Part shown: in pieces, positions 27,848 to 57,232 of the stretch
Position numbering within the stretch: position 1 is the first letter of the stretch
Layout of the letters: each line of letters opens with the position of its first letter
DNA from: Nitrospira sp. ND1
Lineage (GTDB): Bacteria; Nitrospirota; Nitrospiria; Nitrospirales; Nitrospiraceae
Direction: 5' to 3'
Length of the DNA stretch: 64,000 nt
Assembly: GCF_900170025.1 (NCBI RefSeq)
Contig: NZ_FWEX01000006.1
Coordinates: 2,695,236-2,759,235, forward strand
The notes under the pieces: model-generated
The model's input: only the letters and a program-made list of their open reading frames with translations
Told to the model about the DNA's origin: nothing
The model's database searches: none
Position numbers and translations under genes: made by a program

Positions 27848-27958
27848 CGCCCTGCTACCTGCTTCCGGTTTTCCGACAGCCGGGGAATCGGGCTTCACCA
27901 GGTGAGGCCTCCATTCTCCAGTTGCGTCCGGACATCCAGACTCTCCATACTATTCCCC

Positions 27959-30559
27959 ATGCGAGACACCCTTCCGACCGAACTCGAAACGAGTGCCGGC
28001 GATCCGCGCAAGGCCCTCCTGCAGGTTGCCGAGGCGATTTCTCTGCACAGGGATCTCCCGGCCCTGTTTCGAGATCTCGCACAACGGCTGCCCGCTGTCG
28101 CCCCGTTCGATTTCATCGGCCTGGTGCTGCACGATCCGGCGAAGCAGGTCATGAAGGTGCATGTGCTTGAAACGGTTGAGGCGCGGGGGGTAACGAACCG
28201 GCTGGACGGCATGGAAATCCCGATGGAGGAGTCCGCCAGCGGCTGGGTCTGGTCGCATCAGCAGCCGTTGATGATCCCGTCGCTGGCCGATGAAACGCGG
28301 TACAAGCCCGGGCTCGGCGCGCTCCGGAGCATCGGCGTGCAATCGCTCTGTTTCTGCCCCCTCACCACGGCGATGCGGCGTCTCGGCGCGATCGGATTCG
28401 GCAGTCTGAGAACCTCCGCGTTCGGTGACGCCGATGTGGAGTTTCTCAACCAGGTCGCCAAACTGGTCGCCGTCGCCGTGGACAATGTGCTGCATCACCA
28501 GGCCTTGAGCGACGAGCGCGATCGGCTGCAACTGCTGCTGGACGTGACAGAATCGATCGCCTCCCATCGTGACCTCACCCGACTGCTTGAGGACTTGGCC
28601 GGACGATTGCCCCAACTCGTGCCGTTCGATTTCATCAACGCGGTGCTCCATGATCCCGCGACAGACAAGATGCGCTTGTGGCTGCTGGTGACCTCGGAGC
28701 CCTCGACCCTTCGCCCCGGGCTCGAGACTCCCATCGAGGAATCGCCCGGCGGCTTGGTGTGGAAAACCCAGCAACCGCTGACGGTTCATGACGTTGCGCA
28801 GGAAGATCGCTTTCCCGGATTGATGACGCTGTTTCGCGAGAACGGGGTACGGGCGTTTTGTGTCGTGCCGCTCACGACGGCGCATCGCCGGTTGGGCGCC
28901 ATGGGGTTCGGCAGTCTCCAGCCGCGGGTCTATGAGAAACGTGAGATCGCCCTCATGCAGCAGGTGGCCAAGCAGGTGGCGGTGGCCCTGGACAATGCGC
29001 TCAACGGCGAGACGGCCTTGACTTATCAGGGGCAGTTGACGCGGGAACGCGATCGCCAGCGCCTGTTGCTCGAGGTCAATAATGCGGTGGTCTCTCACCT
29101 GGACCTGGATCAACTGTTTCCAGCGGTCAGCGCCTGTCTGCGTCGGGTGATTCAACACGATGGTTCCAGCCTGCTCCTCTGCAATGACGAGACAGGGCAA
29201 TGGCGCATCCACGTTCTGGATTTCGACCGAAACGAAAGCTTCATCGAAGAAGGACGGATCGAAGAGAGCCCACGCTCTCCCTCGTGCCAGGCGATCACGA
29301 CCGGCCAGGCGGCCGTGTTCGGTGAAGACGAGCTCAGGGAGATGGCAGAGTCTTCACCCATCGCACAGGAGCTCCTGGACTTTGGCGCCAAGTCGTTCTG
29401 CTCCTTACCGCTCCTGTCGCACAATCGCACCCTCGGAGCCTTGAACGTCTGTCGGCGCGGTGAGGGAGGCTTCAGCCAGGAGGACGTGCAGCTCCTGGCC
29501 CAAGTCGCGCAGCAAGTTGCGATTGCGGTGGAGAACGCGCTCGCGTTCCGGGAGATTGCCGCGCTCAAGGATAAGCTCGCCAAAGAAAAGGTCTATCTCG
29601 AGGAAGAAATTCAGACGGCGTACAACTTCGAGGAGATCGTCGGGGACAGTCGCGCCCTGAAGCAGGTGCTCAAACAGGTTCAGACCGTCGCGACCACCGA
29701 TTCCACCGTGCTGATACTCGGTGAAACGGGCAGCGGGAAGGAGTTGATCGCGAGGGCCTTGCACAATCTCAGCGATCGAAGGGAACGGACCTTCGTGAAA
29801 CTCAATTGTGCCGCGATTCCTACCGGGCTGCTGGAGAGCGAGCTGTTCGGGCACGAAAAGGGAGCCTTTACCGGGGCCATCGCGACGAAGATCGGGCGGT
29901 TCGAGTTGGCCGACGGCGGGACCATTTTCCTGGATGAAGTGGGGGAGATACCGTTGGAACTCCAGGTCAAGTTGCTGCGGGTGTTGCAGGAGCAGGAGTT
30001 CGAGCGGTTGGGCAGCACCAGAACCATTCGTGTCAACGTCCGGGTGATCGCCGCGACGAATCGGGATCTTGGCCAGATGGTGGAGGAGCAGAAGTTTCGC
30101 AGCGATCTCTACTATCGGCTGAAAGTGTTCCCGATGACCGTGCCGCCGTTGCGCGAACGGGCGGAGGATGTGCCCTTGCTGGTTCGCCATTTCGTCCAGA
30201 AGTTCGCCGCACGCATGAAGCGGCGGATCGAAACCGTTCCGGCTGAGGCCATGAAAGCGCTCCAGGCCTATTCCTGGCCCGGCAATGTGCGGGAGCTGGA
30301 AAATTACATCGAACGGGCGGTGATCCTGTCCTCCGGCTCGGAGCTGTTCGTCTCCACCGCTGAACTGAAACGCGCTGCCCCGGTGGGGAACGGATCAGCC
30401 ACGACGCTGGAGGACGCCGAGCGCGAGCACATTCTCAAGGCGCTGAGAGAGACGAACTGGGTCATCGGCGGCGACGCCGGGGCTGCGGCCCGCTTGGGGA
30501 TGAAGCGAACCACCCTCCAGTCCAAAATGCAGAAGCTCGGTATCACGCGCCCACGGTAG
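27959..30559 (+). CDS. Sigma-54-dependent transcriptional activator with three GAF domains
   Basis: An 866-aa FhlA/NorR-type enhancer-binding protein. Three tandem GAF sensory domains occupy about residues 15-175, 190-345 and 365-525. A coiled linker precedes the AAA+ domain with Walker A GETGSGKE near 587, the sigma-54-contacting GAFTGA near 637, Walker B TIFLDEVGE, and Arg fingers. A Fis-type helix-turn-helix ends the protein (AAARLGMKRTTLQSKMQKLG). The ATG at 27959 is chosen since residues from an upstream in-frame ATG are not protein-like. Its likely targets are next door: two units preceded by the same palindrome and by GG-N10-GC promoters. GAF ligands in relatives include formate and nitric oxide; the ligand here is unknown. 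Confidence 0.94.
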   Translation: MRDTLPTELETSAGDPRKALLQVAEAISLHRDLPALFRDLAQRLPAVAPFDFIGLVLHDPAKQVMKVHVLETVEARGVTNRLDGMEIPMEESASGWVWSHQQPLMIPSLADETRYKPGLGALRSIGVQSLCFCPLTTAMRRLGAIGFGSLRTSAFGDADVEFLNQVAKLVAVAVDNVLHHQALSDERDRLQLLLDVTESIASHRDLTRLLEDLAGRLPQLVPFDFINAVLHDPATDKMRLWLLVTSEPSTLRPGLETPIEESPGGLVWKTQQPLTVHDVAQEDRFPGLMTLFRENGVRAFCVVPLTTAHRRLGAMGFGSLQPRVYEKREIALMQQVAKQVAVALDNALNGETALTYQGQLTRERDRQRLLLEVNNAVVSHLDLDQLFPAVSACLRRVIQHDGSSLLLCNDETGQWRIHVLDFDRNESFIEEGRIEESPRSPSCQAITTGQAAVFGEDELREMAESSPIAQELLDFGAKSFCSLPLLSHNRTLGALNVCRRGEGGFSQEDVQLLAQVAQQVAIAVENALAFREIAALKDKLAKEKVYLEEEIQTAYNFEEIVGDSRALKQVLKQVQTVATTDSTVLILGETGSGKELIARALHNLSDRRERTFVKLNCAAIPTGLLESELFGHEKGAFTGAIATKIGRFELADGGTIFLDEVGEIPLELQVKLLRVLQEQEFERLGSTRTIRVNVRVIAATNRDLGQMVEEQKFRSDLYYRLKVFPMTVPPLRERAEDVPLLVRHFVQKFAARMKRRIETVPAEAMKALQAYSWPGNVRELENYIERAVILSSGSELFVSTAELKRAAPVGNGSATTLEDAEREHILKALRETNWVIGGDAGAAARLGMKRTTLQSKMQKLGITRPR

Positions 30560-30576
30560 CGCCGATCTTTCGACAG

Positions 30577-30594
30577 CTGCCGACATCTCGGCAG
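30577..30594. promoter_or_regulatory. 18-bp palindrome, candidate upstream activator site 1
   Basis: CTGCCGACATCTCGGCAG is a perfect 7-bp inverted repeat with a 4-bp centre, starting 18 bp after the activator gene's stop codon. The same length and arm sequence recurs at 33164-33181. Its centre lies about 118 bp upstream of the GG of a sigma-54 promoter candidate, a normal enhancer distance. It could alternatively act as the hairpin of a terminator, but no T-run follows. Confidence 0.55.
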
Positions 30595-30701
30595 TCACTC
30601 CTTCGGCACCGCATTCTCATTGTCTTCGACACCGTCGCTCCTCACTGCGTAACTCCCCGTCCTGCAAGCAGTCTCTCTGCAAGTCACGAGTTCCACATCG
30701 C

Positions 30702-30717
30702 TGGAACGGTCCATGCT
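30702..30717 (+). promoter_or_regulatory. Candidate sigma-54 promoter 1
   Basis: TGGAACGGTCCATGCT fits the sigma-54 pattern TGGCAC-N5-TTGC(A/T) with exact GG-N10-GC spacing (GG 30703-30704, GC 30715-30716). It is about 64 bp upstream of the CxxC mini-protein start codon. The rest of the 221-bp gap (30560-30780) contains only palindrome 1. Confidence 0.5.
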
Positions 30718-30780
30718 TTCTCCGACTGATATCCGAGCATGACCGCAGTCTTCATTTCAATGCGATGAGAGGAGCGTCCC

Positions 30781-31071
30781 ATGTCATCCATAAAGAACCG
30801 ACGGTTCGTCTCCATGGCTACTGCTGCAACGTCGAGTCGGGCGAACTGCCGCCACGGACAGGCCGATCGAGTCGCGGGACCGGTTCGCACCGTGGTCGAC
30901 GACAGTGGATCACTGGCAATCACCGCTTGGACTTGCGCCGCTTGCGGCAACCTCATTGAGGAACTTCATCTCCTCTCGCGGGATGGGACGGCTCGGCCCT
31001 ATCCAATTCGCCATGCCGTTGTTCCCCGGGTCCAAACCAGGCGGCTTGCTGCCTTGCCGGTCTGGAGGTAA
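30781..31071 (+). CDS. Small CxxC protein, first gene of sigma-54 unit 1
   Basis: A 96-aa ORF with GAGAGGAG ahead of the ATG. The C-terminal half contains ITAWTCAACGNLIEELHLLS, a single CxxC knuckle with a following acidic/hydrophobic helix, a style seen in other mini-proteins of this genome such as the zinc-ribbon protein at 59793-60038. The N-terminal half is basic and low in information, so the true start may be the internal Met at codon 12. Function is unknown; a metal- or redox-responsive role is suggested only by the cysteines and the regulatory context. Confidence 0.5.
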   Translation: MSSIKNRRFVSMATAATSSRANCRHGQADRVAGPVRTVVDDSGSLAITAWTCAACGNLIEELHLLSRDGTARPYPIRHAVVPRVQTRRLAALPVWR

Positions 31072-31132
31072 GCCGCGGGTATGGTCATAACGAGAAGCAC
31101 GGTTGTCGAGAGAGGGAGATTGGGGTGACGTG

Positions 31133-32089
31133 ATGGAATCCTTAACGAACATGTTGGCTCAGCACGGAGCACTCGTCTTGTTCGCCGTTGTGTTTGCCGA
31201 GCAAGTCGGACTGCCCTTCCCGGCGCTGCCGCTCCTGGTGGCGGGAGGGGTGTTGGTCGGCACCGGCCATCTGGCCTGGAGCAGTGCGCTCGGCGCGGCG
31301 ATCCTCGCCACGCTGATGGCGGACGCGATCTGGTATCTGGCGGGACAATGGCGCGGACGTCCCGTCCTCAGTCTGCTCTGCCGGATCGCGTTGGAACCGG
31401 ATGCCTGCGTCCGGCGCACGGAGGACTTTTTTCTGCGTCACGGACCGAAGTCGTTGATCGTGGCGAAATTCATTCCCGGGTTGAGTACGATCGCCCCTCC
31501 GCTCGCCGGCATCGTCGGGCTGAGTGTGCCCCTGTTCCTGCTCTATGACACCCTTGGTGCGTTGTTATGGGCGGGATCTGGATTGGAGTTTGGCTATGCG
31601 TTCAGCGGTCAGATCGAGCAGGCCTTCGCCTATTCGGAGCAGGTGATGCCTGCCTTGCTGCTCACAATGGTGTTTCTGCTGGCCGGCTTCGTATCCCTTA
31701 AAGCCTGGCATCGGCACCGGCAGCTTCGCCTGGTGCCGCGCATGACGGTGGCAGAGCTCGCGGAGAAGCTGACGGCGGCTGAACCGCCGGTGCTGATCGA
31801 TGTCCGACCGCGCGCGAGGGCGGAGGCGGAACCGGGCATTCCCACGGCGGTGCTGATGTCGTTGGATGAATTGGCCCGGCGTTATCAGGAATTCCCGCGC
31901 CATCGCGACGTGGTCGTCTACTGCGGGTGTCCGGCGGATGTGGCCAGCGCTCAAGGTGCGCTCCTTTTACAGAAGAAGGGGTTCACTCGCGTGTGGCCGC
32001 TGGCCGGTGGCATCGAGGCCTGGCGGGCAACTGTGACTCAGAACGCAGTTACGGAGAGGGCTCTTGAACGCCAGACTGTTGCAGCCTGA
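31133..32089 (+). CDS. DedA-family membrane protein fused to a rhodanese domain
   Basis: A 318-aa fusion. Residues 1-205 are a DedA (SNARE-associated) transporter-like module with five or six TM segments, the entry motif AEQVGLPFPALPLLVAGG and the conserved KFIPGLSTIAPPLAG. Residues about 215-310 form a rhodanese domain (PVLIDVRPRARAEAEPGIPTA) with active-site loop YCGCPAD on the predicted cytoplasmic side. DedA proteins move lipids or protons across the inner membrane; rhodaneses carry persulfide. The ATG at 31133 is used, as the ten codons before it have no ribosome-binding site. It is second in sigma-54 unit 1. Confidence 0.9.
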   Translation: MESLTNMLAQHGALVLFAVVFAEQVGLPFPALPLLVAGGVLVGTGHLAWSSALGAAILATLMADAIWYLAGQWRGRPVLSLLCRIALEPDACVRRTEDFFLRHGPKSLIVAKFIPGLSTIAPPLAGIVGLSVPLFLLYDTLGALLWAGSGLEFGYAFSGQIEQAFAYSEQVMPALLLTMVFLLAGFVSLKAWHRHRQLRLVPRMTVAELAEKLTAAEPPVLIDVRPRARAEAEPGIPTAVLMSLDELARRYQEFPRHRDVVVYCGCPADVASAQGALLLQKKGFTRVWPLAGGIEAWRATVTQNAVTERALERQTVAA

Positions 32090-32131
32090 CCGGTGGAATG
32101 ACAGGCTGACAACAGGTTCAGGGAGGTGAAG

Positions 32132-33118
32132 ATGGAATTGAAAATACCGACCCCGGAACAGGCCTATTGGGGACTGCGCGCGATGAAAACCGTGGCCCTG
32201 GCCGACGGCACGCTCGACGATTCCGAACGGCAGGTGATGGAAGCGGTCCAGCGGGTGTTCGGCACGCATCATCAGACGGAAGAACTGGAACCGATTACTC
32301 CGGAAGAGTTGGCCGCGGCGCTTCCCGATCCGCAAATCAGACGTCAGTTGGTCAACGGGCTGGTCGTGATGTCGCTGATCGATCGTGAGGTCAGTCCTCG
32401 GGAGGCCGAACTGGTCGAACGATTTGCTGCGGCCCTCCAGGTCACGGCGCCCGAGGTCACGAATCTTCGTCATGTCGTCAAGCGAGAGTTGTTTCATTTG
32501 CGTCTCGACCTAGCCCGGCGCTTCTGGCTCAGGGAAAAGGTGGCCGAGATTTGGAAGCAGGAAGGACTGCGGGGGCTCGCAAAATTCGCTGCCGGCATGA
32601 TCGGCAAGTATGAAGATGCGACCGTCGCAGCTCGTTACCAGGCCTTGGAGCAGTATCCGGCCGGGTCGTTGGGGAGGAGTTACTGGGAATATTGCCGGAA
32701 GAACGGCTTCGCGTTCCCGGGAGAGAAAGGGGGCGCGCCCGAATCCATTCTGTTTCACGATTGTGCCCACATCTTGTCCGGCTACGGCACGGCGCCCGAG
32801 GAGGAAGTTCAAGTGGCCTGCTTCAGTGCAGGCTTTCAACGGCGTGATCCGTTCCTCTTCGTGTTTTTTGTGTTGCTCCAGTTTCACGTCGGTATCCGTA
32901 TGACGCCGATTACTGCGGCCAGAACCGGGTTCTTCGATCCGGAGAGGGCCTTGATCGCCATGCGTCGCGGCGCGGCGATGAATGTGGATCTCAACCATGG
33001 CTGGGACTATTGGCCGGTGATGGGTGAACAGGTTGAGGAGCTACGGCGTCGATACAACATTCTGCCTATCGAGGCGTTCCGCACGAGGGCTGAGAGTGAA
33101 TCGGAGCAGGTACGCTGA
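32132..33118 (+). CDS. TerB-like domain joined to a Coq4-like domain
   Basis: 328 aa from the ATG at 32132 (GGGAGGTG upstream). Residues about 5-130 resemble the helical TerB/tellurite-resistance domain (TVALADGTLDDSERQVMEAV and SLIDREVSPREAELVERFA). Residues about 165-320 resemble Coq4: YPAGSLGRSYWEYC and FHDCAHILSGYGTAPEEE, where HDCAH plus 11 residues plus Glu reproduces the HDxxHx(11)E metal motif. Coq4 acts in ubiquinone biosynthesis as a decarboxylase/hydroxylase. A quinone-related stress role is a guess. It is the last gene of sigma-54 unit 1. Confidence 0.72.
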   Translation: MELKIPTPEQAYWGLRAMKTVALADGTLDDSERQVMEAVQRVFGTHHQTEELEPITPEELAAALPDPQIRRQLVNGLVVMSLIDREVSPREAELVERFAAALQVTAPEVTNLRHVVKRELFHLRLDLARRFWLREKVAEIWKQEGLRGLAKFAAGMIGKYEDATVAARYQALEQYPAGSLGRSYWEYCRKNGFAFPGEKGGAPESILFHDCAHILSGYGTAPEEEVQVACFSAGFQRRDPFLFVFFVLLQFHVGIRMTPITAARTGFFDPERALIAMRRGAAMNVDLNHGWDYWPVMGEQVEELRRRYNILPIEAFRTRAESESEQVR

Positions 33119-33163
33119 CATCAGACGACCCCTCAGTCTGCAAGTTTGTGAGTCGGTTGGACG

Positions 33164-33181
33164 CTGCCGTTATTTCGGCAG
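33164..33181. promoter_or_regulatory. 18-bp palindrome, candidate upstream activator site 2
   Basis: CTGCCGTTATTTCGGCAG has a perfect 6-bp inverted repeat. It matches site 1 (30577-30594) at 14 of 18 positions, including both arms and the central spacing. It is followed at once by a smaller hairpin TGCC-GAAT-GGCA (33183-33194). Its centre is about 135 bp upstream of the GG of sigma-54 promoter candidate 2. Confidence 0.55.
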
Positions 33182-33305
33182 ATGCCGAATGGCAGGCAGG
33201 CGGACTTCGTCATCCACCTCAGCCATGAACGAAGCACGGGCGGACGGGAGAATATTTTCCCCATTCGAATGCGCACTTAGATTGGAATGCGTCCGATGGC
33301 GAGAC

Positions 33306-33321
33306 AGGAACAGTCGTTGCT
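33306..33321 (+). promoter_or_regulatory. Candidate sigma-54 promoter 2
   Basis: AGGAACAGTCGTTGCT gives GG-N10-GC spacing (GG 33307-33308, GC 33319-33320) with a full TTGCT -12 element. It lies about 80 bp upstream of the RND adaptor gene. Nothing else is recognisable in the 281-bp gap 33119-33399. Confidence 0.5.
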
Positions 33322-33399: not shown

Positions 33400-34524
33400 A
33401 TGAATCGTCGAAGTTGGATCGGGTCTTCGTTGCTGCTCCTGACCGTGGCGGCGGCCGGTGTGGGCCTGGCTGCGTGGAAGTACGGCAGCATCCAAGCGAA
33501 TGCGGCGGCCTCGGCGAACCAGCCCGAACCGATGGAATCGGTGTCGGTCTCTGTCGCCAGGGATGTCGAGCATCATCAGACGGCCACTTCTATCGGCACC
33601 GTGCTGGCGTTGCGCTCGATCACGCTGCGAAACGAACTGGCCGGCACCGTCAGCCAGGTCAAGTTTGTGCCCGGCCAGACGGTCGAGGCCGGGGCCGTGC
33701 TCGTGGCGCTCGATGTGTCGGTGGAAGAAGCGGACTTGCGGGCCCAACAGGCCCAGGCGGTTCTGGCGAAGACCGTGCTGGATCGTCGGCGGGCGTTGAC
33801 CCAAGACCAAGCCGCGGCTCAGGAGGAAGTCGATCGGGCCCGCGCAGACCTCGATGTCGCGCATGCCCAGATGGCGCGCACGAAGGCCTTGATCGCCCGC
33901 AAGACGATCCGTGCCCCGTTCCGCGCCCGTGCGGGATTGGCCGATGTGCATCCCGGGCAATATCTCAACGAAGGCACGCAACTGACGACGTTGCAGGGCA
34001 TCGATGAGGCGGTCCATGTGGACTTTGCGGTTCCGCAGCACGTCGCGCTCGGATTGCGGCAAGGGGCGACCGTCGAGGTCTTCACCGGTGACTCCTCCCC
34101 GGTGGCCGCCAGGATTGTGGCGATCGATGCCCGCATCGACCCCGCCACGCGCAACACCATGGTACGTGCCAGGGTCGAGCATTCCGCCAACATGCCGGCT
34201 CCCGGAGCGGCCGTGCGGATCAGGGTGCCGGTGGGATTGGCGCGCAAGGCTGTGGCGGTTCCGGTGAATGCGTTGAAAAAGGGTCCGGGTGGCGATCAGG
34301 TATTTGTCATCGAGCCGGACCGCGAGAATAAACAGCGTGCGCATGTGCGCCAGGTCGAAAGCGGGACGATGCTCGGTGACGACATCGTCATCTATAGCGG
34401 TCTGAACGCCGGCGAGCGGGTGGCCGCGTCTGGGGCGTTCAAGTTGCGTGACGGCGTGCTCGTCGTCGCCGCCGGCGAGCCGGCGCGTACACCGGAACCG
34501 GAACACCTTCTCAGCCAACAGTAA
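33400..34524 (+). CDS. RND efflux periplasmic adaptor subunit (system 1)
   Basis: A 374-aa membrane-fusion protein with an N-terminal signal anchor (SLLLLTVAAAGVGLAAW). The order is classic: beta-barrel/lipoyl halves (LRNELAGTVSQVKFVPGQTV and TIRAPFRARAGLADVHPGQY) flanking a short alpha-hairpin with QAQAVLAKTVLDRRRA, then barrel and membrane-proximal domains. It bridges the inner-membrane permease encoded 17 bp downstream and the outer-membrane factor further on. First gene of sigma-54 unit 2. Confidence 0.93.
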   Translation: MNRRSWIGSSLLLLTVAAAGVGLAAWKYGSIQANAAASANQPEPMESVSVSVARDVEHHQTATSIGTVLALRSITLRNELAGTVSQVKFVPGQTVEAGAVLVALDVSVEEADLRAQQAQAVLAKTVLDRRRALTQDQAAAQEEVDRARADLDVAHAQMARTKALIARKTIRAPFRARAGLADVHPGQYLNEGTQLTTLQGIDEAVHVDFAVPQHVALGLRQGATVEVFTGDSSPVAARIVAIDARIDPATRNTMVRARVEHSANMPAPGAAVRIRVPVGLARKAVAVPVNALKKGPGGDQVFVIEPDRENKQRAHVRQVESGTMLGDDIVIYSGLNAGERVAASGAFKLRDGVLVVAAGEPARTPEPEHLLSQQ

Positions 34525-34541: not shown

Positions 34542-37500
34542 ATGCGTTCATTTACCGACATCTTCATCAAGCACCCCGTGCTGGCCGTGGTCGTGAACCT
34601 CGTGATCGTCCTCGTGGGCTGGCGGGCGCTGACGACGCTGCCGGTGCAACAGTATCCGAAGATCGAGAGCTCCTCGATCATCATCACGACGGTCTATTAT
34701 GGAGCCGCGGCAGAGACGGTGCGGGGATTCCTCACCACGCCGATCGAGCGAGTCGTGTCGGCGATCAGCGGGGTGGATTATCTCGAATCCACGAGTCGCG
34801 CCGGCGTCAGCACCGTGACGGTGCATTTGAAGCTGAACCACAACAGCACGGCGGCACTCGCTGAAGTGACGGCGCGGTTGCAACAGGTCCGGTCGGAGCT
34901 GCCGGCTGAGGCGGAACCTCCGGCGGTGGAAGTGCAGCGTGCCGACCGCCCCTATGCGTCGTTTTATCTCAGTTTCACGTCTCCGGAGCGGACCGTGCCG
35001 GCGCTGACGGATTGGCTGTTGCGAACCCTGCAGCCGCAACTGGCCACCTTGACCGGGGTGCAGCGGGTCACCATTGAAGGTGGACGGCAGATCGCCATGC
35101 GCGTGTGGATCGATCCCGATCGTCTCGCGGCCTACAACCTCTCTCCCGGCGATGTGCAGGCCGCGTTGCGGCGCAACAATTACCTGGCCGCCGTCGGCCG
35201 GACCAAGGGCAACCTTGTGCAGGTCAATCTGCTCGCCAATACGGACCTGCGTTCCGTGAACGAGTTTCAGGAACTCATCGTGGCGGACCGTGGCGGCGCC
35301 ATCGTGCGGCTCCGGGATGTGGCGCGAGTGGAAAACGGCGCTGAAGAAGCGGAGATGGTGGCGAAGTACAACCGCCTGGAGGGGGTGTACCTCGGGGTCT
35401 GGCCGCTGGTCGGCTCCAACGAGATTGAAGTGGCACACCGGTTGCGGGAAGAAATGGATCGTATCCGGCCGACCCTGCCGAAAGATATCGACATGCAGTT
35501 GGTCTGGGACGGCACCATGTTCATGGAAAGCGCCTTGACGGAGATTACCAAGACGCTGGGCGAAACGATTCTGATCGTGGCCACGGTGGTTTTCCTGTTC
35601 ATGGGATCGATCAGGACCGCACTGGTCCCGCTGGTCGCCATGCCGGTGTCGCTGATCGGGGCCGCCATCTTCATGTATGCGTTTGGCTTCAGCCTGAATC
35701 TGTTGACGATTCTGGCGATCGTGTTGTCGGTGGGATTGGTGGTGGACGATGCGATCGTTGTCGTGGAGAACGTCGAACGGCATGTGCGCGAAGGAAAGTC
35801 GCGGATTCAAGCGGCGTTGATCGGCTCGCGCGAATTGGTCGGGCCCATCATCGCCATGACCATTACCCTGGCCGCAGTTTATGCTCCGATCGGTTTTCAG
35901 GGAGGTCTGACCGGCTCGCTGTTTCTGGAGTTTGCCATCACCCTGGCCGCCGCAGTCGTGCTGTCCGGCGTCGTGGCGATCACGCTCTCGCCGGTCATGA
36001 GCTCGCGGTTTGTCCACCCGGAGGGGAAGGAGGGCAAGTTGACCCGTCTGGTCAATCGCGGGTTCGATGTGACCCGGGCGTTCTACGGGCGGTTGCTCGA
36101 CGGTGCGTTGGAGATGCGCTGGGCGATCGTTGCGGCATCGCTGCTGATCATGGTGGCGGCCGTTCCGCTGTATCTCTTTTCACGGCAGGAATTGGCGCCT
36201 GTGGAGGATCAAAGTCATATCAGTCTTTTTTTGGAGGCCTCGCCGGACTCGACGGTCGCCGCCACCAACAGTGACTCGCTGAAAGTGGTCGAAGCGATCC
36301 GGGCGTTTCCGGAAGCCCGCTTCATGTGGTCGTTGACCTCGTCGTGGGGCGGCTTCGGCGGCCTGGTGGCCAAGGACTGGCGGGAACGGACGCGCTCGAC
36401 CGAGTTGATGTACGGCGAAGTCTTCGGAGCCGTGTCGCAGATCCCCGGTCTGCGGGTGTTCCCGCGCCTTGATCCGCCATTGCCGACGCCCGGGCAATAT
36501 GATGTGGAACTGCTCCTGGCGAGTGAAGTGCCTGCCGAGCAGCTGTTGGAAATGACCGCCGCGGTCCTGGGTGCCGGTTGGCAGAGCGGCAAGTTCCTGT
36601 ATGTCGACACCGACCTGAAGATTGATTTGCCTGAAGCGCGGGTCGTGCTCGATCGCGAGCGACTCGCCGACCTGGGCTTCGATCTGGCCGGGGTCGGTCA
36701 GGAACTGGGGACGCTGCTCGGCGGGGCCTATGTGAATCGGTTCAATTTTTACGACCGCAGTTACAAGGTCATTCCTCAAATCGGCGACAAGGATCGCGCG
36801 ACGTTGGACCCGCTGCTCGATCTCAAGATCAAGACACCAAGCGGCCAGCTGGTGCCGGTCTCGACGTTTACGCATATTGAGACGAGTACTGCGCCGCGGA
36901 CGCTGAACCGTTTCCAACAACGTAATGCGGTGCGGATCTTCGGCGGGGTGAAGCCCGGGGTGACGAAGGAGGAAGGGCTGCGTGTTCTGGAAACTGCGGC
37001 GGCCTCGGCCGTCGGTCCACGGGTGGCGCTCGATTTTGCGGGAGAATCGCGCCAGATCCGCCACGAAGGTTCGGCCTTGACGGTGACACTGGGCTTTGCG
37101 GTGGTGCTGATTTACCTCGTGCTCGCGGCTCAGTTCAAAAGTTTTCGGGACCCGCTGATCGTCCTGCTGGGCTCCGTGCCGCTGGCGATCTCAGGCGCGC
37201 TGGTGTTCAGTTTCCTCGACCTGACGACGATCAACATCTATTCGCAGGTCGGGTTGATTACACTGGTGGGGCTGATTGCGAAGAACGGCATTTTGATCGT
37301 GGAGTTCGCGAATACTCTGCAGGAACGAGGGCTGTCGAAGACGGCCGCCCTGCGCGAAGCATCCCTGACGCGATTGCGCCCGGTCCTGATGACCTCGGCC
37401 GCCACGGTCTTCGGGCACCTCCCGCTGGTGCTCGTTTCGGGACCCGGCGCCGCGGCCCGCAACAGCATCGGCATGGTGTTGGTCACGGGGATGACGGTCG

Positions 37501-37625
37501 GAACACTCTTCACGCTGTTCGTCGTGCCGGTGTTTTACTCGCTGATCGCGGCCCGACATCAGCCGGCGCTAGAACTGGACGCGGCCGAAGAGGGTGAGTT
37601 GCAGTTGGCGGCGGCAAAGGGATGA
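34542..37625 (+). CDS. RND multidrug efflux permease (system 1)
   Basis: A 1027-aa HAE1-type resistance-nodulation-division transporter with twelve TM helices and two large periplasmic loops. The N-terminus FIKHPVLAVVVNLVIVLVGW and the TM4 proton-relay segment GLVVDDAIVVVENVERH with two Asp are diagnostic; the C-terminal repeat GLIAKNGILIVEFAN is also present. It exports hydrophobic compounds in exchange for protons. Its sequence is clearly different from permease 2 at 54053-57232. It lies within an eight-gene co-directional run. Confidence 0.96.
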   Translation: MRSFTDIFIKHPVLAVVVNLVIVLVGWRALTTLPVQQYPKIESSSIIITTVYYGAAAETVRGFLTTPIERVVSAISGVDYLESTSRAGVSTVTVHLKLNHNSTAALAEVTARLQQVRSELPAEAEPPAVEVQRADRPYASFYLSFTSPERTVPALTDWLLRTLQPQLATLTGVQRVTIEGGRQIAMRVWIDPDRLAAYNLSPGDVQAALRRNNYLAAVGRTKGNLVQVNLLANTDLRSVNEFQELIVADRGGAIVRLRDVARVENGAEEAEMVAKYNRLEGVYLGVWPLVGSNEIEVAHRLREEMDRIRPTLPKDIDMQLVWDGTMFMESALTEITKTLGETILIVATVVFLFMGSIRTALVPLVAMPVSLIGAAIFMYAFGFSLNLLTILAIVLSVGLVVDDAIVVVENVERHVREGKSRIQAALIGSRELVGPIIAMTITLAAVYAPIGFQGGLTGSLFLEFAITLAAAVVLSGVVAITLSPVMSSRFVHPEGKEGKLTRLVNRGFDVTRAFYGRLLDGALEMRWAIVAASLLIMVAAVPLYLFSRQELAPVEDQSHISLFLEASPDSTVAATNSDSLKVVEAIRAFPEARFMWSLTSSWGGFGGLVAKDWRERTRSTELMYGEVFGAVSQIPGLRVFPRLDPPLPTPGQYDVELLLASEVPAEQLLEMTAAVLGAGWQSGKFLYVDTDLKIDLPEARVVLDRERLADLGFDLAGVGQELGTLLGGAYVNRFNFYDRSYKVIPQIGDKDRATLDPLLDLKIKTPSGQLVPVSTFTHIETSTAPRTLNRFQQRNAVRIFGGVKPGVTKEEGLRVLETAAASAVGPRVALDFAGESRQIRHEGSALTVTLGFAVVLIYLVLAAQFKSFRDPLIVLLGSVPLAISGALVFSFLDLTTINIYSQVGLITLVGLIAKNGILIVEFANTLQERGLSKTAALREASLTRLRPVLMTSAATVFGHLPLVLVSGPGAAARNSIGMVLVTGMTVGTLFTLFVVPVFYSLIAARHQPALELDAAEEGELQLAAAKG

Positions 37626-37666: not shown

Positions 37667-37978
37667 ATGCTGAAGATTACGTCCGAGCAGACTTCCGATT
37701 CCGCGCGTCTGACCTTGGAAGGGAGTCTGAGCGGACCCTGGGTGACTGAACTCGAACGGGTGTGGCAGCAGGTCAAACAATCCGGCACGTTTGCCCCCGT
37801 GGTGGAACTGACAGGAATCACGTTCATTGCCGAGGAGGGCAGGGCTCTGCTGACCAGCATGTGGCGGGAGGGTGCTGTCCTGGTCGCGAACGGGTGCTGC
37901 ACCAGACATATCGTGCAAGAAATCACCGGGGCGGGAGGCGGCCAGGCTGCCTCATCCGTCCGCTGTGAGACGACATAG
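37667..37978 (+). CDS. STAS-domain-like protein
   Basis: 103 aa. The sequence ARLTLEGSLSGPWVTELERVW and VVELTGITFIAEEGRALLTS follows the beta-alpha layout of STAS/anti-sigma-antagonist domains, but the usual phosphorylatable Ser after the core strand (DxSGV) is replaced by FIAEEG, so partner switching by phosphorylation is unlikely. It sits between pump permease and outer-membrane factor genes (12 bp before the latter), suggesting a role tied to the pump. GGAGG lies upstream of the ATG. Confidence 0.72.
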   Translation: MLKITSEQTSDSARLTLEGSLSGPWVTELERVWQQVKQSGTFAPVVELTGITFIAEEGRALLTSMWREGAVLVANGCCTRHIVQEITGAGGGQAASSVRCETT

Positions 37979-37990
37979 GACGATCATCGC

Positions 37991-39436
37991 ATGCGCATTG
38001 TAGCTCTCTTCCTAAGCTCTGTTCTCCTAGGCGCCTGTGCCATCGGGCCGGACTACTCCCGTCCCGACCTTGCTGTGCCGGACCGGTTCCGCATGGCGGC
38101 GACCCAGCAGGAAACCGAGTCGTTTGCCAACCTGCCCTGGTGGGATCTGTTGCAGGATGAAGAACTGCGGCGTCTTATTCGAGTGGCGCTGGCTGAGAAT
38201 AAAGATCTGAAACGGGCGGTTGCGTCGGTCGAAGATTTTCAGGCCCGCATGTTGATCGCAAAAATGGATTTCGCGCCGAAGGCCGATCTCACGTCCAACG
38301 CGCCCTTGTTCGGCCGCAAGGCAAACTTTCTGTTTCCGGGCTTTCCCAATCCGTTCAACTACTATCTCCAGGGGAATCTCTCCTGGGAGATCGATATCTG
38401 GGGCCGCATTCGTCGATCGAATGAAGCGGCAAGGGGAGATCTCCTGTCGCGGGAGGAGGCTCGCCGCGCGGTTGTCTTGCAACTGGTGAGCGGCGTGGCG
38501 GAGGCCTACTTCGACATGCTGCAGTTCGACATGCAGTTGGCCGTCGCGCAGCGAACGCTGAAATCCTGGGACGAATCGGTCAGGATTGCCGAGGCCCGGC
38601 TGCGGGAGGGCATGATCTCCAAAATCGATGCGGACCAGTTCGCGGCGGAACGCGCCAACGCCGCAGCACGGGCGGCAGAGTTGAGCCGGCAAATGGTGCA
38701 GAAAGAAAACCAGCTCAGTGTGTTGCTGGGGCGTGTGCCGGGTCAGATTCCGAGAGGACGTTCCCTCACCGACCAGGTGATGCCGCCGGAGGTGCCGGCC
38801 GGCCTTCCTTCGGAATTGCTGCAGCGCCGCCCGGATCTCGTGCAGGCAGAACAGGAATTGGCTGCGGCCACGGCGCGAATCGGTGTGGCGAAGGCGGACC
38901 GGTTTCCGAAACTCAGCATCACGGGAATTCTCGGTGTCGCCAGCCCGCAGTTGTCCCGCTTGGTGGCGAATGAGACGGCGTTCGGTACCGCAGGTCCCGG
39001 GCTTGCCGGTCCCTTGCTGAATGCTCAGATCCTCGGTTTTCAGCAGGACGCGGCTGAAGCGCAGAGCCGTGAAGCGCTGGCACGGTATGAGCAGGCGTTG
39101 CTGGTGGCGTTTCGTGAAGTGGAGGATTCGCTGGTTGCCGTGCGAACGGTGCGGGAGCAGCGGAATGCGCAGGTTGAGCAGGTGGACGCGTTGCGTTCGG
39201 CTCTGCGTCTGGCCAATCTGCGGTATAAAGGAGGACTCGCGAACTATCTCGACGTCCTCGTGGCGCAACGCAATCTGTTCGAGGCGGAACTGGCGTTAAC
39301 CAGCACCCACCGGTTACAGCTGGTGTCGGTCGTGCAATTGTATAAAGCGCTGGGGGGCGGATGGTCGCCGCTCGATACGGCCCAGCAACAGCCGGGCCAA
39401 GCTCCGGCAGAACCCGGAAAGGCGGGGCGCGGCTGA
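37991..39436 (+). CDS. RND outer-membrane factor, NodT type (system 1)
   Basis: A 481-aa TolC-like channel lipoprotein. The signal ends in a lipobox (VLLGAC), followed by the NodT start IGPDYSRPDLAVPDRFR and two OEP repeats with long helices. The block APLFGRKANFLFPGFPNPF is almost identical to that of the second outer-membrane factor at 57225-58661, and similarity is high along the whole length. It completes a tripartite pump with the adaptor and permease upstream. Confidence 0.94.
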   Translation: MRIVALFLSSVLLGACAIGPDYSRPDLAVPDRFRMAATQQETESFANLPWWDLLQDEELRRLIRVALAENKDLKRAVASVEDFQARMLIAKMDFAPKADLTSNAPLFGRKANFLFPGFPNPFNYYLQGNLSWEIDIWGRIRRSNEAARGDLLSREEARRAVVLQLVSGVAEAYFDMLQFDMQLAVAQRTLKSWDESVRIAEARLREGMISKIDADQFAAERANAAARAAELSRQMVQKENQLSVLLGRVPGQIPRGRSLTDQVMPPEVPAGLPSELLQRRPDLVQAEQELAAATARIGVAKADRFPKLSITGILGVASPQLSRLVANETAFGTAGPGLAGPLLNAQILGFQQDAAEAQSREALARYEQALLVAFREVEDSLVAVRTVREQRNAQVEQVDALRSALRLANLRYKGGLANYLDVLVAQRNLFEAELALTSTHRLQLVSVVQLYKALGGGWSPLDTAQQQPGQAPAEPGKAGRG

Positions 39437-39481: not shown

Positions 39482-40039
39482 ATGAGCCAGGAGGACAGTC
39501 AGGCAGGCCCTCTCGCGCAATTCCTCGCCGAAGACCATCGACGGCTCGACGCATTGTTGCAGTCGGCGGCGGCCCAACCGGCCCAGGTCAATCGCGAGGT
39601 CTACGATCAATTTCGTGCCGGACTGCTCCGGCACATCGGCTTGGAGGAGAAGATTCTGTTCCCTGCCGTCCAACGGTGGCGAGGCGGCACACCGCTTCCG
39701 ATCGCTGCCAAGCTACGTCTCGATCACGGCGCGCTGGCCACGTTGCTCATGCCTACTCCCACCCCAGCGATCCTGGCGACCATCCGGCGCCTGCTCACGG
39801 ACCACAATGTGTTGGAAGAGGGACCGGGCGGTGTCTACGATCTCTGCGATCAGCTGGCAGGCTTTGAAGCCGAGTCACTGCTGAAGGATCTGCGCGCCGC
39901 TCCGCCGGTTGCCGTGATGCCCCATTCCGACAGCCCTGCGGTGATGACCACGCTACGCCGCACATTGGAGCGGGCCGGTTATCGCATGGAGGCGGACATG
40001 GGTAGAGATGTGCCGGTGACTCCGGCCGGGGAACCCTGA
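39482..40039 (+). CDS. Hemerythrin-domain protein
   Basis: A 185-aa helical-bundle protein. Metal-ligand candidates are His in AEDHRRLDALLQ, His and Glu in LLRHIGLEEKILFPA, His in LRLDHGALATLL and His in LTDHNVLEEGPGGVYDLCD, matching the H...HxxxE...H...HxxxxD/E arrangement for a diiron site. Such proteins bind oxygen or nitric oxide, or act in iron-sulfur repair. Its position between a pump and an NnrS-like gene favours a nitrosative or oxidative stress role. A Ser/Val-rich 50-residue tail (SPAVMTTLRRTLERAGY) has a short conserved-looking element. Confidence 0.88.
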   Translation: MSQEDSQAGPLAQFLAEDHRRLDALLQSAAAQPAQVNREVYDQFRAGLLRHIGLEEKILFPAVQRWRGGTPLPIAAKLRLDHGALATLLMPTPTPAILATIRRLLTDHNVLEEGPGGVYDLCDQLAGFEAESLLKDLRAAPPVAVMPHSDSPAVMTTLRRTLERAGYRMEADMGRDVPVTPAGEP

Positions 40040-40057
40040 CGGAAAGTGTACGCGTCT

Positions 40058-41158
40058 ATGGTTGTCCGACATCCTCAACGTCTTCCGCTCCTGGCTTTGG
40101 GGATGCTCGCGTTGCTCACCGGACTCTGGGCGGGGCTTGCGCGGCTCGGGTGGGATGTGCCGCTTCCGCGACCTGGATTTTCCTCCTTGCATGGGCCGCT
40201 CATGGTGTCCGGCTTTCTGGGTACGCTGATCAGCTTGGAGCGTGCGGTGGCTCTGGGCCGGCCCTGGGCCTATGCCACGCCGCTGCTGACCGGACTCGGC
40301 GGTGTGAGCTTGATCGTCGGGGCCCCGCTTCTTGCGGCGCAATGGTTGATGCTTGCCGGCAGCCTCGGGCTGGTTGCGATTTTTGCGGCGATCATTCGCC
40401 GACACCCGGCGCTGTACACGTTCACCATGGGGGGCGGATCGCTAGTCTGGGCGTTGGGCAATCTGCTCTGGTGTCTCGGGTGGCCCGTCTTTCTGGTCGT
40501 GTTCTGGTGGGCGGCGTTTCTCGTGGTGACCATCGCCGGTGAGCGCCTGGAACTGGCCCGGCTGCAGCAAGTGACCGGAGCCGCGCAGGCGACGCTTCTG
40601 CTGTTGCTCGGCATTCTGCTCACGGGGCTGTTGCTGCTGGGCTGGTCGTTTGACGGGGGCGTTCGTCTGTTCGGGTTGGGGCTGGCCGGTCTAGCCCTGT
40701 GGTTGGGGCGGCATGACATTGCCAGGCGAACCGTCAAGCAAGCAGGGCTGACGCGGTTTATTGCGATCTGTCTGCTCACCGGGTATGTCTGGCTCGGCAT
40801 CAGCGGGTTGTCTGCCATGTGGTTCGGCGGTGTTCCCGTAGGTCCGCAGTACGACGCCACGCTGCATGCCTTTTTTCTCGGGTTTGTCTTCGCGATGATC
40901 TTCGCCCATGCGCCGATTATTTTCCCGGCAGTACTCGGCGCACGGATGACCTATCGGCCGCTGTTCTATGCGCATGTGGTCCTGTTGCAAGTCACTCTGG
41001 CCGTGCGTCTCATCGGTGATGCGGCAGGGTGGAGCGCCGGTCGTCAGGTCGGCGGCCTGCTCAATGCTGTGACGCTGCTCCTGTTTCTCGTCAACACAGT
41101 GTCGGCGCTACAGAGTCCCCCGGAGCGAGCAGGGACAGCGCAAGGCCGGGGGGCGTGA
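40058..41158 (+). CDS. NnrS-like polytopic membrane protein
   Basis: About 366 aa and ten or eleven TM helices. Histidines sit at helix ends or inside helices in motifs typical of the NnrS group: LHGPLMVSGFLGTLISLERA, TLHAFFLGFVFAMIFAHAP and IIFPAVLGARM. NnrS is a heme- and copper-containing membrane protein that eases nitrosative stress; this relative is shorter, so the assignment is to the superfamily only. ATG 40058 is preferred over GTG 40046 on ribosome-binding-site spacing. Neighbouring hemerythrin and MIP18 genes fit the same theme. Confidence 0.7.
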   Translation: MVVRHPQRLPLLALGMLALLTGLWAGLARLGWDVPLPRPGFSSLHGPLMVSGFLGTLISLERAVALGRPWAYATPLLTGLGGVSLIVGAPLLAAQWLMLAGSLGLVAIFAAIIRRHPALYTFTMGGGSLVWALGNLLWCLGWPVFLVVFWWAAFLVVTIAGERLELARLQQVTGAAQATLLLLLGILLTGLLLLGWSFDGGVRLFGLGLAGLALWLGRHDIARRTVKQAGLTRFIAICLLTGYVWLGISGLSAMWFGGVPVGPQYDATLHAFFLGFVFAMIFAHAPIIFPAVLGARMTYRPLFYAHVVLLQVTLAVRLIGDAAGWSAGRQVGGLLNAVTLLLFLVNTVSALQSPPERAGTAQGRGA

Positions 41159-41206
41159 TGTGTGCGAACTGCAGACGGCGGCTTCGCCGGTGAAAGGACC
41201 AGTTGA

Positions 41207-41530
41207 ATGACGACGGAGCATCACGGTGCAGCGTCCGATCCACGAGTGCTAGAGGCCCTGCGGCAGGTGGTTGATCCCGAGTTAGGTATCAACATCGTGG
41301 ATCTCGGATTGGTATACGGCAGCGAGGTGCGGGACGGTCAGGTTCATGTGGCCATGACGATGACGACGCCCGCCTGCCCGATGGAAGAGCTGTTGATGGA
41401 GATGGTGCATGCGGCGATTCTGCGTGAGTTGCCGGAGGCGCGTTCAGTGGAAGTGGATCTCGTGTGGGAGCCCGCCTGGAAGCCGGAGATGATGAGTCCG
41501 TCTGCCAAGGTGCAGTTGGGCCGGACGTGA
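41207..41530 (+). CDS. MIP18-family (DUF59) metal-sulfur cluster assembly factor
   Basis: A 107-aa protein matching PaaD/SufT-type DUF59: LRQVVDPELGINIVDLGLVY, then VAMTMTTPACPMEELL with the conserved Cys, and a C-terminal VDLVWEPAWKPEMMS. These proteins assist iron-sulfur cluster assembly or transfer. Here it follows the hemerythrin and NnrS-like genes, consistent with repair of clusters damaged by NO or oxidants. It is co-directional with a 48-bp gap. Confidence 0.93.
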   Translation: MTTEHHGAASDPRVLEALRQVVDPELGINIVDLGLVYGSEVRDGQVHVAMTMTTPACPMEELLMEMVHAAILRELPEARSVEVDLVWEPAWKPEMMSPSAKVQLGRT

Positions 41531-52411: not shown

Positions 52412-52859
52412 GGCCAGTCGTAGAGGATGATGGCAGCATGGTCTGCCGGGCGGAGGCTAGTTGAATCACCTTTGATACGTGCTGCGCGCTCTGGCATGGT
52501 CAAGTGAGGAAGATGTTGGAATTTACCTAGCCTAGGACGTCAGAGTTAAGCATCTTCAGTCAGGGAACATGAGTGGGAAGAGGGTGGCGAATCCAGGCGT
52601 GGGAGACTGGGATCTCGCGCCCCCTTCCCATGATGGCGTCCCCACCGAACCACGTGTCGTCTCCCCGCTCGGCGCAACCTTCAAGTCTCGTGCAGTCCAT
52701 TCTTGAACTAAGGGAAGAGCACTGTGCCCTGATTGCTTACGAGTGTCTGCCACGCAGATGCGCGCCGAGGCTCCGTTGCTTACGCAGGAGCCAACCAGTA
52801 AGATAGGCTTCCAGTAATATCCCATGAACTGCGTAATCAGATTTTATCAGGGAGCGAGC
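52412..52859. other. 448-bp intergenic stretch upstream of RND system 2
   Basis: No supported ORF. A possible promoter for the pump operon is TTGCTT (52776-52781) and TAAGAT (52799-52804), spaced 17 bp and 56 bp from the adaptor start. No CTGCCG-type palindrome like those of system 1 is present, so this pump is probably not under the same activator. Confidence 0.3.
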
Positions 52860-54056
52860 ATGGCCAGGCGATCACGATTTTCAACTGTAGCCCCGATGAT
52901 ATACGGGTGCCTGGCGTTGGCGCTGCTCTCAAGCTGTAAGCAGGAAGTCGGTTCTTCCCAGGCCCCTCCGGTTCCAGAGGTCGGCATTGTCGTGGCGACG
53001 GCGCAGGACGTGCCCGATGAGCCGGAGTTCATCGGACAGTCGGAGTCATCGCGGCCGGTAGAAATCAGATCGCAGGTGACAGGGATTCTCAAAGAATGGT
53101 TCTTTAAGGAAGGCCGTGACGTCAAGAAAGGCGACCGCCTCTATCAGATCGACCCGGTGCCCTTTCATGCCGCAATGTTGAGCGCGAAGGCGAAAGTCGC
53201 TCAGGCAGAGGCGCGACTGGTGCAGGCCAAGCAGAATCTAGCCCGGGTGAAGCCCTTGTTGGCCGAGCAGGCCGTGAGTACAAAAGATGTCGATGATGCG
53301 GTGGCCGAGGAGATGGCGGCGAAAGCGAACCTCGAAGGCGCCAAGGCGGAACTGGTCAAAGCCAAGTTCGATCTCGACAACACGCTGATCGTGGCGCCCA
53401 TCAGCGGCATGATCGAGCGGACGCGTGTATATGAAGGACGACTTGTGTCGGCCCAGACCGATCTCCTGACGATCATTCAGCAGGTCGATCCCATGTATGT
53501 GATCGTCAGCGCACCGGAAAGTTTTTTATTGAAGCGGCAGCGCGACAGTACGGCCAAACGGATTCAGCACCCCGGCGTCTATCAATTGCGCGGCGTCCTG
53601 ACCTTTGCAGACGGGACCACGTACGGGCAGGAGGGGGTGTTGGACCTCTTGGATGTCGGACTCAAAACCGATACGGGATCGCGGCAGGCCCGGGTAGTCT
53701 TTCCCAATCATGATCGCGTGCTGCTGCCCGGGCAGTTCGTGCGGGTTCGCTTCAAGGGGACGGTCAAGACCGGCGCGATTCTGGTGCCGCAGCGTGCTGT
53801 GCAGCAAGGCGCCAAGGGGTCCATCGTGTTTGTCGTCGGGAATGAGGACAAGGTTGAGATGCGGGAGGTTCAGGCGACCAGCTGGCAAGGCAACCAATGG
53901 ATTGTCGAGCAAGGGTTGCATGTCGGGGACCGCATCATCGTGGAAGGTCTGCATAAGATTGCGCCCGGCGCGCCGGTGAAGCCTGTGCCGCTTCCTGCTC
54001 CTGCCGCGACGACCGTTCCGACTGCCGCCAAGCCGCAGCCGGAGCGCGCCTCGTGA
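52860..54056 (+). CDS. RND efflux periplasmic adaptor lipoprotein (system 2)
   Basis: 398 aa, from the ATG at 52860. A lipobox (ALLSSCKQ) predicts a lipoprotein. Domains: lipoyl halves (PVEIRSQVTGILKEWFFKEG and LIVAPISGMIERTRVYEG), an alpha-hairpin with LVQAKQNLARVKPLLAEQAV, and barrel strands. It resembles the AcrA/MexE-type adaptors. Its TGA overlaps the permease start (GTGA), indicating translational coupling. Confidence 0.95.
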   Translation: MARRSRFSTVAPMIYGCLALALLSSCKQEVGSSQAPPVPEVGIVVATAQDVPDEPEFIGQSESSRPVEIRSQVTGILKEWFFKEGRDVKKGDRLYQIDPVPFHAAMLSAKAKVAQAEARLVQAKQNLARVKPLLAEQAVSTKDVDDAVAEEMAAKANLEGAKAELVKAKFDLDNTLIVAPISGMIERTRVYEGRLVSAQTDLLTIIQQVDPMYVIVSAPESFLLKRQRDSTAKRIQHPGVYQLRGVLTFADGTTYGQEGVLDLLDVGLKTDTGSRQARVVFPNHDRVLLPGQFVRVRFKGTVKTGAILVPQRAVQQGAKGSIVFVVGNEDKVEMREVQATSWQGNQWIVEQGLHVGDRIIVEGLHKIAPGAPVKPVPLPAPAATTVPTAAKPQPERAS

Positions 54057-57000: not shown

Positions 57001-57232
57001 TCTCGGCGTGGTACCTCTGGTCATTGCCACGGGCGCCGGCGCTGCCAGCCGAAACTCCATCGGCACCGGGGTGTTCGGCGGGATGCTGGCCGCCACCTTT
57101 CTGGCTATCTTTTTCGTGCCGTTATTCTTTGTGCTGATCCGCTCGTTGAGTCGCCGCTTGAAAAAGCCGACTCCTCCGGCACAGGATGCACCGGACGATC
57201 CCGAAAAGGAGCGCGACTATCAACATGCGTAG
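54053..57232 (+). CDS. RND multidrug efflux permease (system 2)
   Basis: 1059 aa, GTG start overlapping the adaptor stop. HAE1-type pump with FIDRPIFASVLSIVIMVVGL at the N-terminus, the proton-relay GIVVDDAIVVVENCERHMT, and the C-terminal GLSAKNAILIVEFANKRF. Residues 30-330 and 560-870 are the periplasmic porter/docking loops. It looks like the MexF/BpeF group rather than permease 1. The outer-membrane factor overlaps its end by 8 bp. Confidence 0.97.
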   Translation: MISHFFIDRPIFASVLSIVIMVVGLVALKALPVAQFPEITPPVVQIEADYPGANAEIVADSVARPIEVQLPGIDNLLYYDSTSTNDGHMSIKLTFEIGTDVDIAQVQTQNRVKLAEPQLPPEVVRQGISINKVSPDLLAVVALSSIDPTHDTVYLSNYAILRVLDNVKRLRGVGNAVVFGSQNYSMRLILDPIRMAQLSLTPTDIANVVREQNRDFPAGTIGREPALKGTELTIPVITQGRLTEVKEFEELIVRAMPNGSMIHLKDVARVELGAQSYTLEGRWNGKPNVFLLTFLSPGANALETVKRVRAELAEVSKSFPTGVSYDIPYDTTRFIDVSIKEVVKTLAEAMVLVILVVYLFLQSWRATLIPGVAVPVSLVGTFAGMQALGFSINTLTLFGMVLAIGIVVDDAIVVVENCERHMTQGRLSAKNAAKRAMEEVTGPVIAIVLVLCAVFVPVGFLGGITGELYKQFAITISIAVIISGFVALTLSPALCALVLKPGEEQHHGIFGLFNRFFSWMQLRYISTVGLALTRRVLSVAVFAVLLIGVFMLFRVIPSSFLPEEDQGYFITIVQLPDGASKQRTDAVLSKIESYFLASPVIHSTDALSGQNFVFNTRGPNAATMFVPLKHWDERTAPQHHVKSIIGAAYGEFAKIPEALILAFNAPSIRGLGATGGFTLQLQDPSSGDFNKFSAAAQEFVGKARQNPAIGAIGTSFRVSAPRILATVNRERAKALGVPISEVFDTMQAYFGNFYINDFIKFGRVFRVQTEADAQYRSTPEDISKIYVRASGPQGTTMIPLDTVVSTEFTSGPDPVTHFNGYNTALVLGAAAPGFSSGQVLDALEQVAKEVLVPQGYGIDWSGISYQERMVGSQSLYAFAFGLLMVFLVLAAQYESWVVPFAVILAVPIGLFGALSAVWLKGMTNDIYFQIGLVTLIGLSAKNAILIVEFANKRFEEGHPLLEATIEAAKLRFRPIVMTSMAFILGVVPLVIATGAGAASRNSIGTGVFGGMLAATFLAIFFVPLFFVLIRSLSRRLKKPTPPAQDAPDDPEKERDYQHA

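Follow-up and report, generated by a model that had tools for sequence, protein, structure and literature searches.

The stretch of DNA considered here (the window, 64,000 nucleotides of contig NZ_FWEX01000006.1 of Nitrospira sp. ND1, positions 2,695,236 to 2,759,235) harbors the gene of a sigma-54 activator, i.e., a bacterial enhancer-binding protein (EBP), followed by two transcription units, the second of which encodes an efflux pump of the resistance-nodulation-division (RND) family. This FhlA-like activator very probably controls directly two sigma-54 promoters located just 3' of its own gene, P1 and P2, through paired dyads that form a predicted upstream activating sequence (UAS) ahead of each of them (Table 1). 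The mechanism is already known; what is new is the regulon, its enhancer of two dyads, and the covariation between one residue of the activator and one base pair of its sites. No published account of this regulon, or of sigma-54-controlled RND efflux in Nitrospira, was found, subscription journals being mostly outside the search. For one Nitrospira activator, the paired enhancer, both promoters and the targets are now defined enough for direct testing.

The activator and its probable paired enhancers

The activator gene lies immediately 5' of the first palindrome, its TAG stop codon occupying positions 30557-30559, and Pfam gives the domain order GAF-GAF-GAF-Sigma54_activat-HTH_8, in agreement with a preliminary description that had placed a GAF3-AAA-Fis activator gene directly upstream. 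The protein has the hallmarks of a bacterial EBP, with an AAA+ domain (PF00158, 6e-74) carrying the Walker A motif GETGSGKE at residue 587 and GAFTGA at residue 634, and a C-terminal helix-turn-helix (HTH) of the Fis type (PF02954, 2.7e-8); the 4.45 Mb Nitrospira genome also encodes one copy of rpoN (PF04552, 1.7e-56). The recognition helix reads RTTLQSK, the codon of Q853 being at 30518-30520. Comparison by sequence with solved HTH structures returned weak matches only, including ZraR and FleQ (E ~0.7). The closest NCBIfam equivalog is FhlA (NF011958), with 628 bits for a curated cut-off of 830, while the NorR equivalog (NF003451) reaches 388 bits for a cut-off of 476. Because both cut-offs are missed, the activator is called FhlA-like only, and by these sequence models its assignment to FhlA or NorR itself fails.

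Palindrome 1, CTGCCGACATCTCGGCAG (30577-30594), and palindrome 2, CTGCCGTTATTTCGGCAG (33164-33181), are the only perfect CTGCCG-N6-CGGCAG sequences within the window, and they as well as the GG-N10-GC elements were correctly located in the preliminary description; the two palindromes differ at 3 positions, so that 15/18 are identical rather than the 14 reported there. Each has an imperfect partner dyad, which precedes palindrome 1 in UAS1 and follows palindrome 2 in UAS2, at a pitch of exactly 18 bp in both, and a trailing half-site stands about 14-15 bp after the second dyad at both loci. Two TGCCG-N6-CGGCA dyads spaced at an 18-bp pitch, together with a trailing half-site, form the predicted enhancer unit, which is not a single palindrome. 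The regulatory role earlier attributed to the palindrome fits its conservation together with the promoter, but only half of each site had been seen. The GG-N10-GC elements were said to follow at 118-135 bp, and elements are indeed present there. From the end of the palindrome to the promoter 16-mer, 107 bases are counted at the first locus and 124 at the second, an inequality that vanishes because the distances to P1 and P2 counted from the second dyad are 108 and 107 bp.

A scan of the region for sigma-70 promoters found none. The ACTTAG box located between UAS2 and P2 is not an obvious IHF site, and an ACTTAG/ACTTAA-like string is also observed 5' of promoters of paralogous EBP targets.

Table 1. 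Features of the putative regulon and its surroundings (positions in the window)
Feature	Position	Strand	Basis or remark
FhlA-like sigma-54 activator (EBP), 865 aa	27962..30559	+	Pfam domains, motif positions, NCBIfam
UAS1 (predicted), dyads CGCCGATCTTTCGACA (30560-30575) and TGCCGACATCTCGGCA (30578-30593)	30560..30593	+	18-bp pitch
UAS1 trailing half-site TTCGGCA	30602-30608		
Predicted sigma-54 promoter P1, TGGAACGGTCCATGCT	30702..30717	+	108 bp past second dyad; spacing conserved
orf96, CxxC protein, first open reading frame of unit 1	30781..31071	+	Synteny; closest relatives only
DedA/VTT membrane protein fused to rhodanese domain, unit 1	31133..32089	+	Pfam
TerB-like N-terminal domain protein, unit 1	32132..33118	+	Pfam; Coq4 similarity further on weak, sub-threshold
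UAS2 (predicted), dyads TGCCGTTATTTCGGCA (33165-33180) and TGCCGAATGGCAGGCA (33183-33198)	33165..33198	+	18-bp pitch
UAS2 trailing half-site TTCGTCA	33206-33212		Many relatives have TTCGGCA
ACTTAG box between UAS2 and P2	33275..33280	+	Nearly invariant in relatives
Predicted sigma-54 promoter P2, AGGAACAGTCGTTGCT	33306..33321	+	107 bp past second dyad
RND periplasmic adaptor (MFP), unit 2	33400..34524	+	TIGR01730 above cut-off
RND efflux permease (AcrB/HAE1 type), unit 2	34542..37625	+	PF00873; NF033617 best NCBIfam match, below cut-off
Small protein, unit 2, STAS-like by eye only	37667..37978	+	Synteny
Outer membrane factor (OMF, NodT/OprM type), unit 2	37991..39436	+	OEP; TIGR01845 above cut-off
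Second complete RND efflux operon	52824-58661		

Conservation among relatives and extent of the regulon

The activator-linked loci of 18 Nitrospira genomes (the near group) were scanned for a dyad pair and a sigma-54 element. UAS2 was found before the pump in 18/18 and UAS1 in 15/18, a sigma-54 promoter following each, which is contrary to the loss of the palindromes in relatives that the preliminary description had named as fatal to its sigma-54 regulon; that reading is rather supported, palindromes and promoters being kept at a fixed spacing. These 33 UAS have their second dyad nearly always 106-110 bp from the promoter, compared to 1 match in a reversed-sequence control of 568 kb. Compared with the window, the UAS2 regions of the 18 genomes exhibit 97 and 86% identity in the two dyads and 81% in the promoter, but 55% in the spacer. 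In the wider family set, pair and promoter occur at nearly every locus of an activator orthologue and never in 467 kb of reversed control; 61/70 loci have 105-111 bp between second dyad and promoter, and the dyad pitch is 18 (45 loci) or 19 (25 loci).

Single palindromes are barely enriched in the source genome (7 perfect CTGCCG-N6-CGGCAG sequences versus 3 for the reversed pattern, and 67 versus 77 when one mismatch is allowed), as would be expected if two palindromes and two promoter-like strings had come together by chance in GC-rich DNA; with conservation, pairing and fixed spacing already refuting it among relatives, this explanation can hardly be credited. The genome-wide palindrome search suggested earlier recovered both window sites with their promoters, whereas the other five perfect palindromes had no adjoining dyad and no sigma-54 element, 4/5 lying inside long open frames. 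As a single palindrome is not discriminating, the dyad pair with promoter was used instead. Pairs with at most one mismatch are found in the whole genome at UAS1 and UAS2 only, and the regulon was rightly termed local; as far as such a search can tell, it consists in the source genome of two promoters, P1 and P2. Two further dyad pairs with two mismatches (C5:56726 and C6:1389780) occur at the control rate and were rejected as targets. Autoregulation of the activator was likewise discarded, a two-mismatch site at 27862-27879 having neither dyad partner nor promoter when the entire window was scanned for pairs.

A palindrome by itself is a general trait of repressor operators, and the ones described here could in principle serve a repressor or another regulator independent of sigma-54, the GG-N10-GC elements being coincidental. 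No result of the analysis favors a repressor, and the presence across the family of a conserved -24/-12 element at constant distance, the conservation of the promoter columns and the covariation with the EBP helix (see below) make such a role very improbable.

The association also extends to gene content. The RND pump is present in 22/29 congeners, every one of which has the activator, and both are missing in five; of the remaining two, G017 has the activator alone and no such pump, and G024 has only a fragment at a contig end. Hand arithmetic that ignores phylogeny gives C(7,5)/C(29,5), or ~2e-4, for this association. Genes between activator and pump differ among relatives while the pump and UAS2 persist, and one more diverged lineage has the pair before cupin and short-chain dehydrogenase genes (annotated by eye), in front of the pump or apart from it.

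At one locus (L166, G009:C69), the dyad pair has a sigma-54 promoter on either side, the two being divergent and each separated by 107 bp from its nearer dyad, and this enhancer apparently serves both directions. Activator variants of five genomes (L064-L068, in G007, G003, G005, G011, and G013) lack GAF1 and have a diverged GAF2, their GAF3-AAA-HTH part being 84-87% identical and their operators unchanged, which looks like a change of the sensor while the regulon stays.

Covariation between residue 853 and the half-site

The scoring put no constraint on base 3 of the half-site. Among the loci with a clear pair, Gln853 was accompanied by half-sites of the TGCCG/CGGCA type at 61/61 loci, and His853 (7) or Ile853 (2) by the TGTCG/TGACG (CGTCA/CGACA) types at 9/9 loci. 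The strongest argument for the adjacent activator as the probable binder of the dyads is this covariation, and we infer that Q853 reads base pair 3 of the half-site (TGCcg). Residue 853 presumably aligns to Arg89 of Fis. In Fis, this arginine either touches the DNA backbone or turns into the major groove, close to where Arg85 contacts guanine (PMC4784862). Paralogues with Thr, Ser, or Leu, outside the orthologues, lie near TCGTCA/TGACGA or TGTCG sites. Residue 853 in the motif RTTL-X-S might be a natural single-residue specificity switch of FhlA-type EBPs, Gln picking C:G at the third base pair and His, Ile, Leu, Thr, or Ser going with A/T, a proposal that we hold to be evenly poised between right and wrong. 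If true, EBP and enhancers changed together, so that the enhancer sequence, and thereby regulon membership, could be predicted from the protein across this EBP family. The covariation provides in any case a testable rule for FhlA-type regulators that links one residue to one base pair.

Several observations weigh against these interpretations. The His/Ile covariation represents only 1 to 3 independent events, and a Fisher p of 1.5e-11 was set aside as proof because independent Gln-to-His events are at most 1-3. A repeated Gln-to-His change was considered and abandoned, since the His853 sequences form one or two groups and the tree test does not reject a single clade (approximately unbiased test, AU p = 0.82). 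Outside the orthologues, L347 has Gln with mixed half-sites, and L357 has Gln in an RSTLQHR helix, yet its sites are TGTCG..CGACA; a sigma-54 promoter was looked for at the L357 locus and none was found. For a few activator orthologues, no dyad pair was found beside the gene. Finally, cross-talk is possible, as the same genome encodes about 28 EBPs and a paralogous group has related TGCC half-sites.

This last point leads to the suggestion that the dyads are genuine sigma-54 enhancers bound by one or several paralogous EBPs and not by the adjacent GAF3 protein. Beyond the number of EBPs, it is favored by the L145 group, in which related TGCC half-sites adjoin the paralogue's own gene, and by the diverged Q-type paralogues L346 and L348, also found beside TGCCG pairs. 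We nevertheless consider it improbable, since co-occurrence with the pump is seen for the adjacent EBP only, the operator shifts together with the helix residue of that EBP, and the L145-group sites are unlike in sequence and pitch (~33 bp).

The paralogues deserve description in their own right. L145 (G000:C6:2915352-2926852) and its orthologues L162-L164 and L238-L247 have the helix RSTLQHR and a conserved enhancer of their own directly downstream, made of TGCCC-N6-GGGCA and TGCC(A/G)ATATCTCGGCA-type dyads ~33 bp apart, then sigma-54 promoters of the TGGCAC/T type. L069 and L228-L237 form a genus-wide GAF EBP paralogue with the helix RTTLTSK, a small protein gene lying directly 3' in several genomes and TCGTCA/TGACGA repeats preceding a sigma-54 promoter in G016 and G027.

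Comparison with characterized regulators

The closest characterized relative of the activator is FhlA of E. coli, a GAF-AAA+-Fis EBP with 44% identity over 659 aligned residues, beyond which the Nitrospira protein has an extra N-terminal GAF domain. The recognition helices are near-identical (KRTTLxS), FhlA having Leu where the Nitrospira activator has Q853, and in both systems half-sites of the TG-N-CG type are clustered ahead of sigma-54 promoters, those of FhlA being the fdhF and hyc enhancers. TCGTCA, TGACGA, and TGTCG occur in the regions upstream of fdhF and hyc in E. coli, and the published FhlA site is TG(A/T)C..G(A/T)CA (PMC7658346), whereas TGCC..GGCA is found here. FhlA moreover targets formate hydrogenlyase, while the Nitrospira targets are efflux genes, so that neither site nor target is that of FhlA.

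NorR has a different half-site and one GAF domain, in which a non-haem iron senses NO. It is likewise a GAF-controlled EBP for which a cluster of adjacent sites, the three norVW enhancer sites, nucleates the oligomer (PMC2941729); its target is a NO flavorubredoxin, unlike the efflux genes here. The EBP regulons of Desulfovibrio vulgaris are similar in having an EBP gene beside a sigma-54 target and conserved palindromes, and differ in that the accessible part of that report mentions no efflux or RND targets and no covariation of residue and operator (PMC4641369). In the genus itself, sigma-54 regulators near nxr operons also adjoin their presumed targets; these targets are other ones, and the accessible parts of the two sources give no binding sites (PMC7522533, PMC6606698).

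Proposed mechanism and inducing signal

In bacterial EBPs such as NorR, GAF domains restrain the AAA+ activity, the ring assembles on clustered enhancer sites, and remodeling of the sigma-54 polymerase is the task of the GAFTGA loop (PMC2941729). The parts required for such a mechanism are present here, namely GAFTGA, rpoN, clustered sites and -24/-12 elements. Dimers of the Fis-type domain would occupy the two TGCCG-N6-CGGCA dyads, probably assisted by the trailing half-site. A signal perceived by the GAF domains would let the AAA+ domains form an active ring, the ~107 bp of spacer DNA would loop, and the GAFTGA loop would act at the -24/-12 element to remodel the sigma-54 RNA polymerase, with the RND tripartite efflux pump produced from P2 and membrane-linked proteins from P1.

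A toxic or membrane-active compound is the most likely trigger of the regulon, a signal suggested by the RND efflux, DedA and detoxification-type neighbors, and the pump may help determine the tolerance of wastewater-plant nitrifiers to toxic compounds. The same circuit could instead sense nitrosative or oxidative stress, as in NorR. NO or redox stress is retained because a hemerythrin gene (39482-40039) follows the pump operon at ~45 bp, with an Fe-S assembly gene further on, and the NO sensor NorR belongs to the GAF-type EBPs (PMC2941729). This signal appears rather unlikely to us, as in several relatives no hemerythrin gene was found beside the pump and the NorR model scores below its cut-off.

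Transcription units and a second efflux operon

In unit 1, the 96-aa orf96 had no Pfam or NCBIfam match and, compared with three relatives, showed 11-16 codons with synonymous and 18-31 with non-synonymous changes; judged by these counts, its coding status is unproven. Unit 2 encodes MFP, RND permease and OMF in one operon, i.e., a complete RND tripartite efflux system, and its small protein gave no Pfam or NCBIfam match. The hemerythrin-domain gene located 3' of the OMF gene is followed by a multi-pass protein without Pfam match and a FeS_assembly_P gene, and these genes (39482-41530) are possibly read through from P2.

The second RND operon of the window was rejected as a target in the source genome, having no dyad pair or sigma-54 element upstream. 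Its orthologue carries a dyad pair and promoter in G004, G009, G017, G021, and G022, both being absent from those of most other relatives. The predicted UAS at this operon in five relatives represents regulatory rewiring and, being restricted to them, offers a clean example of how a regulon is rewired.

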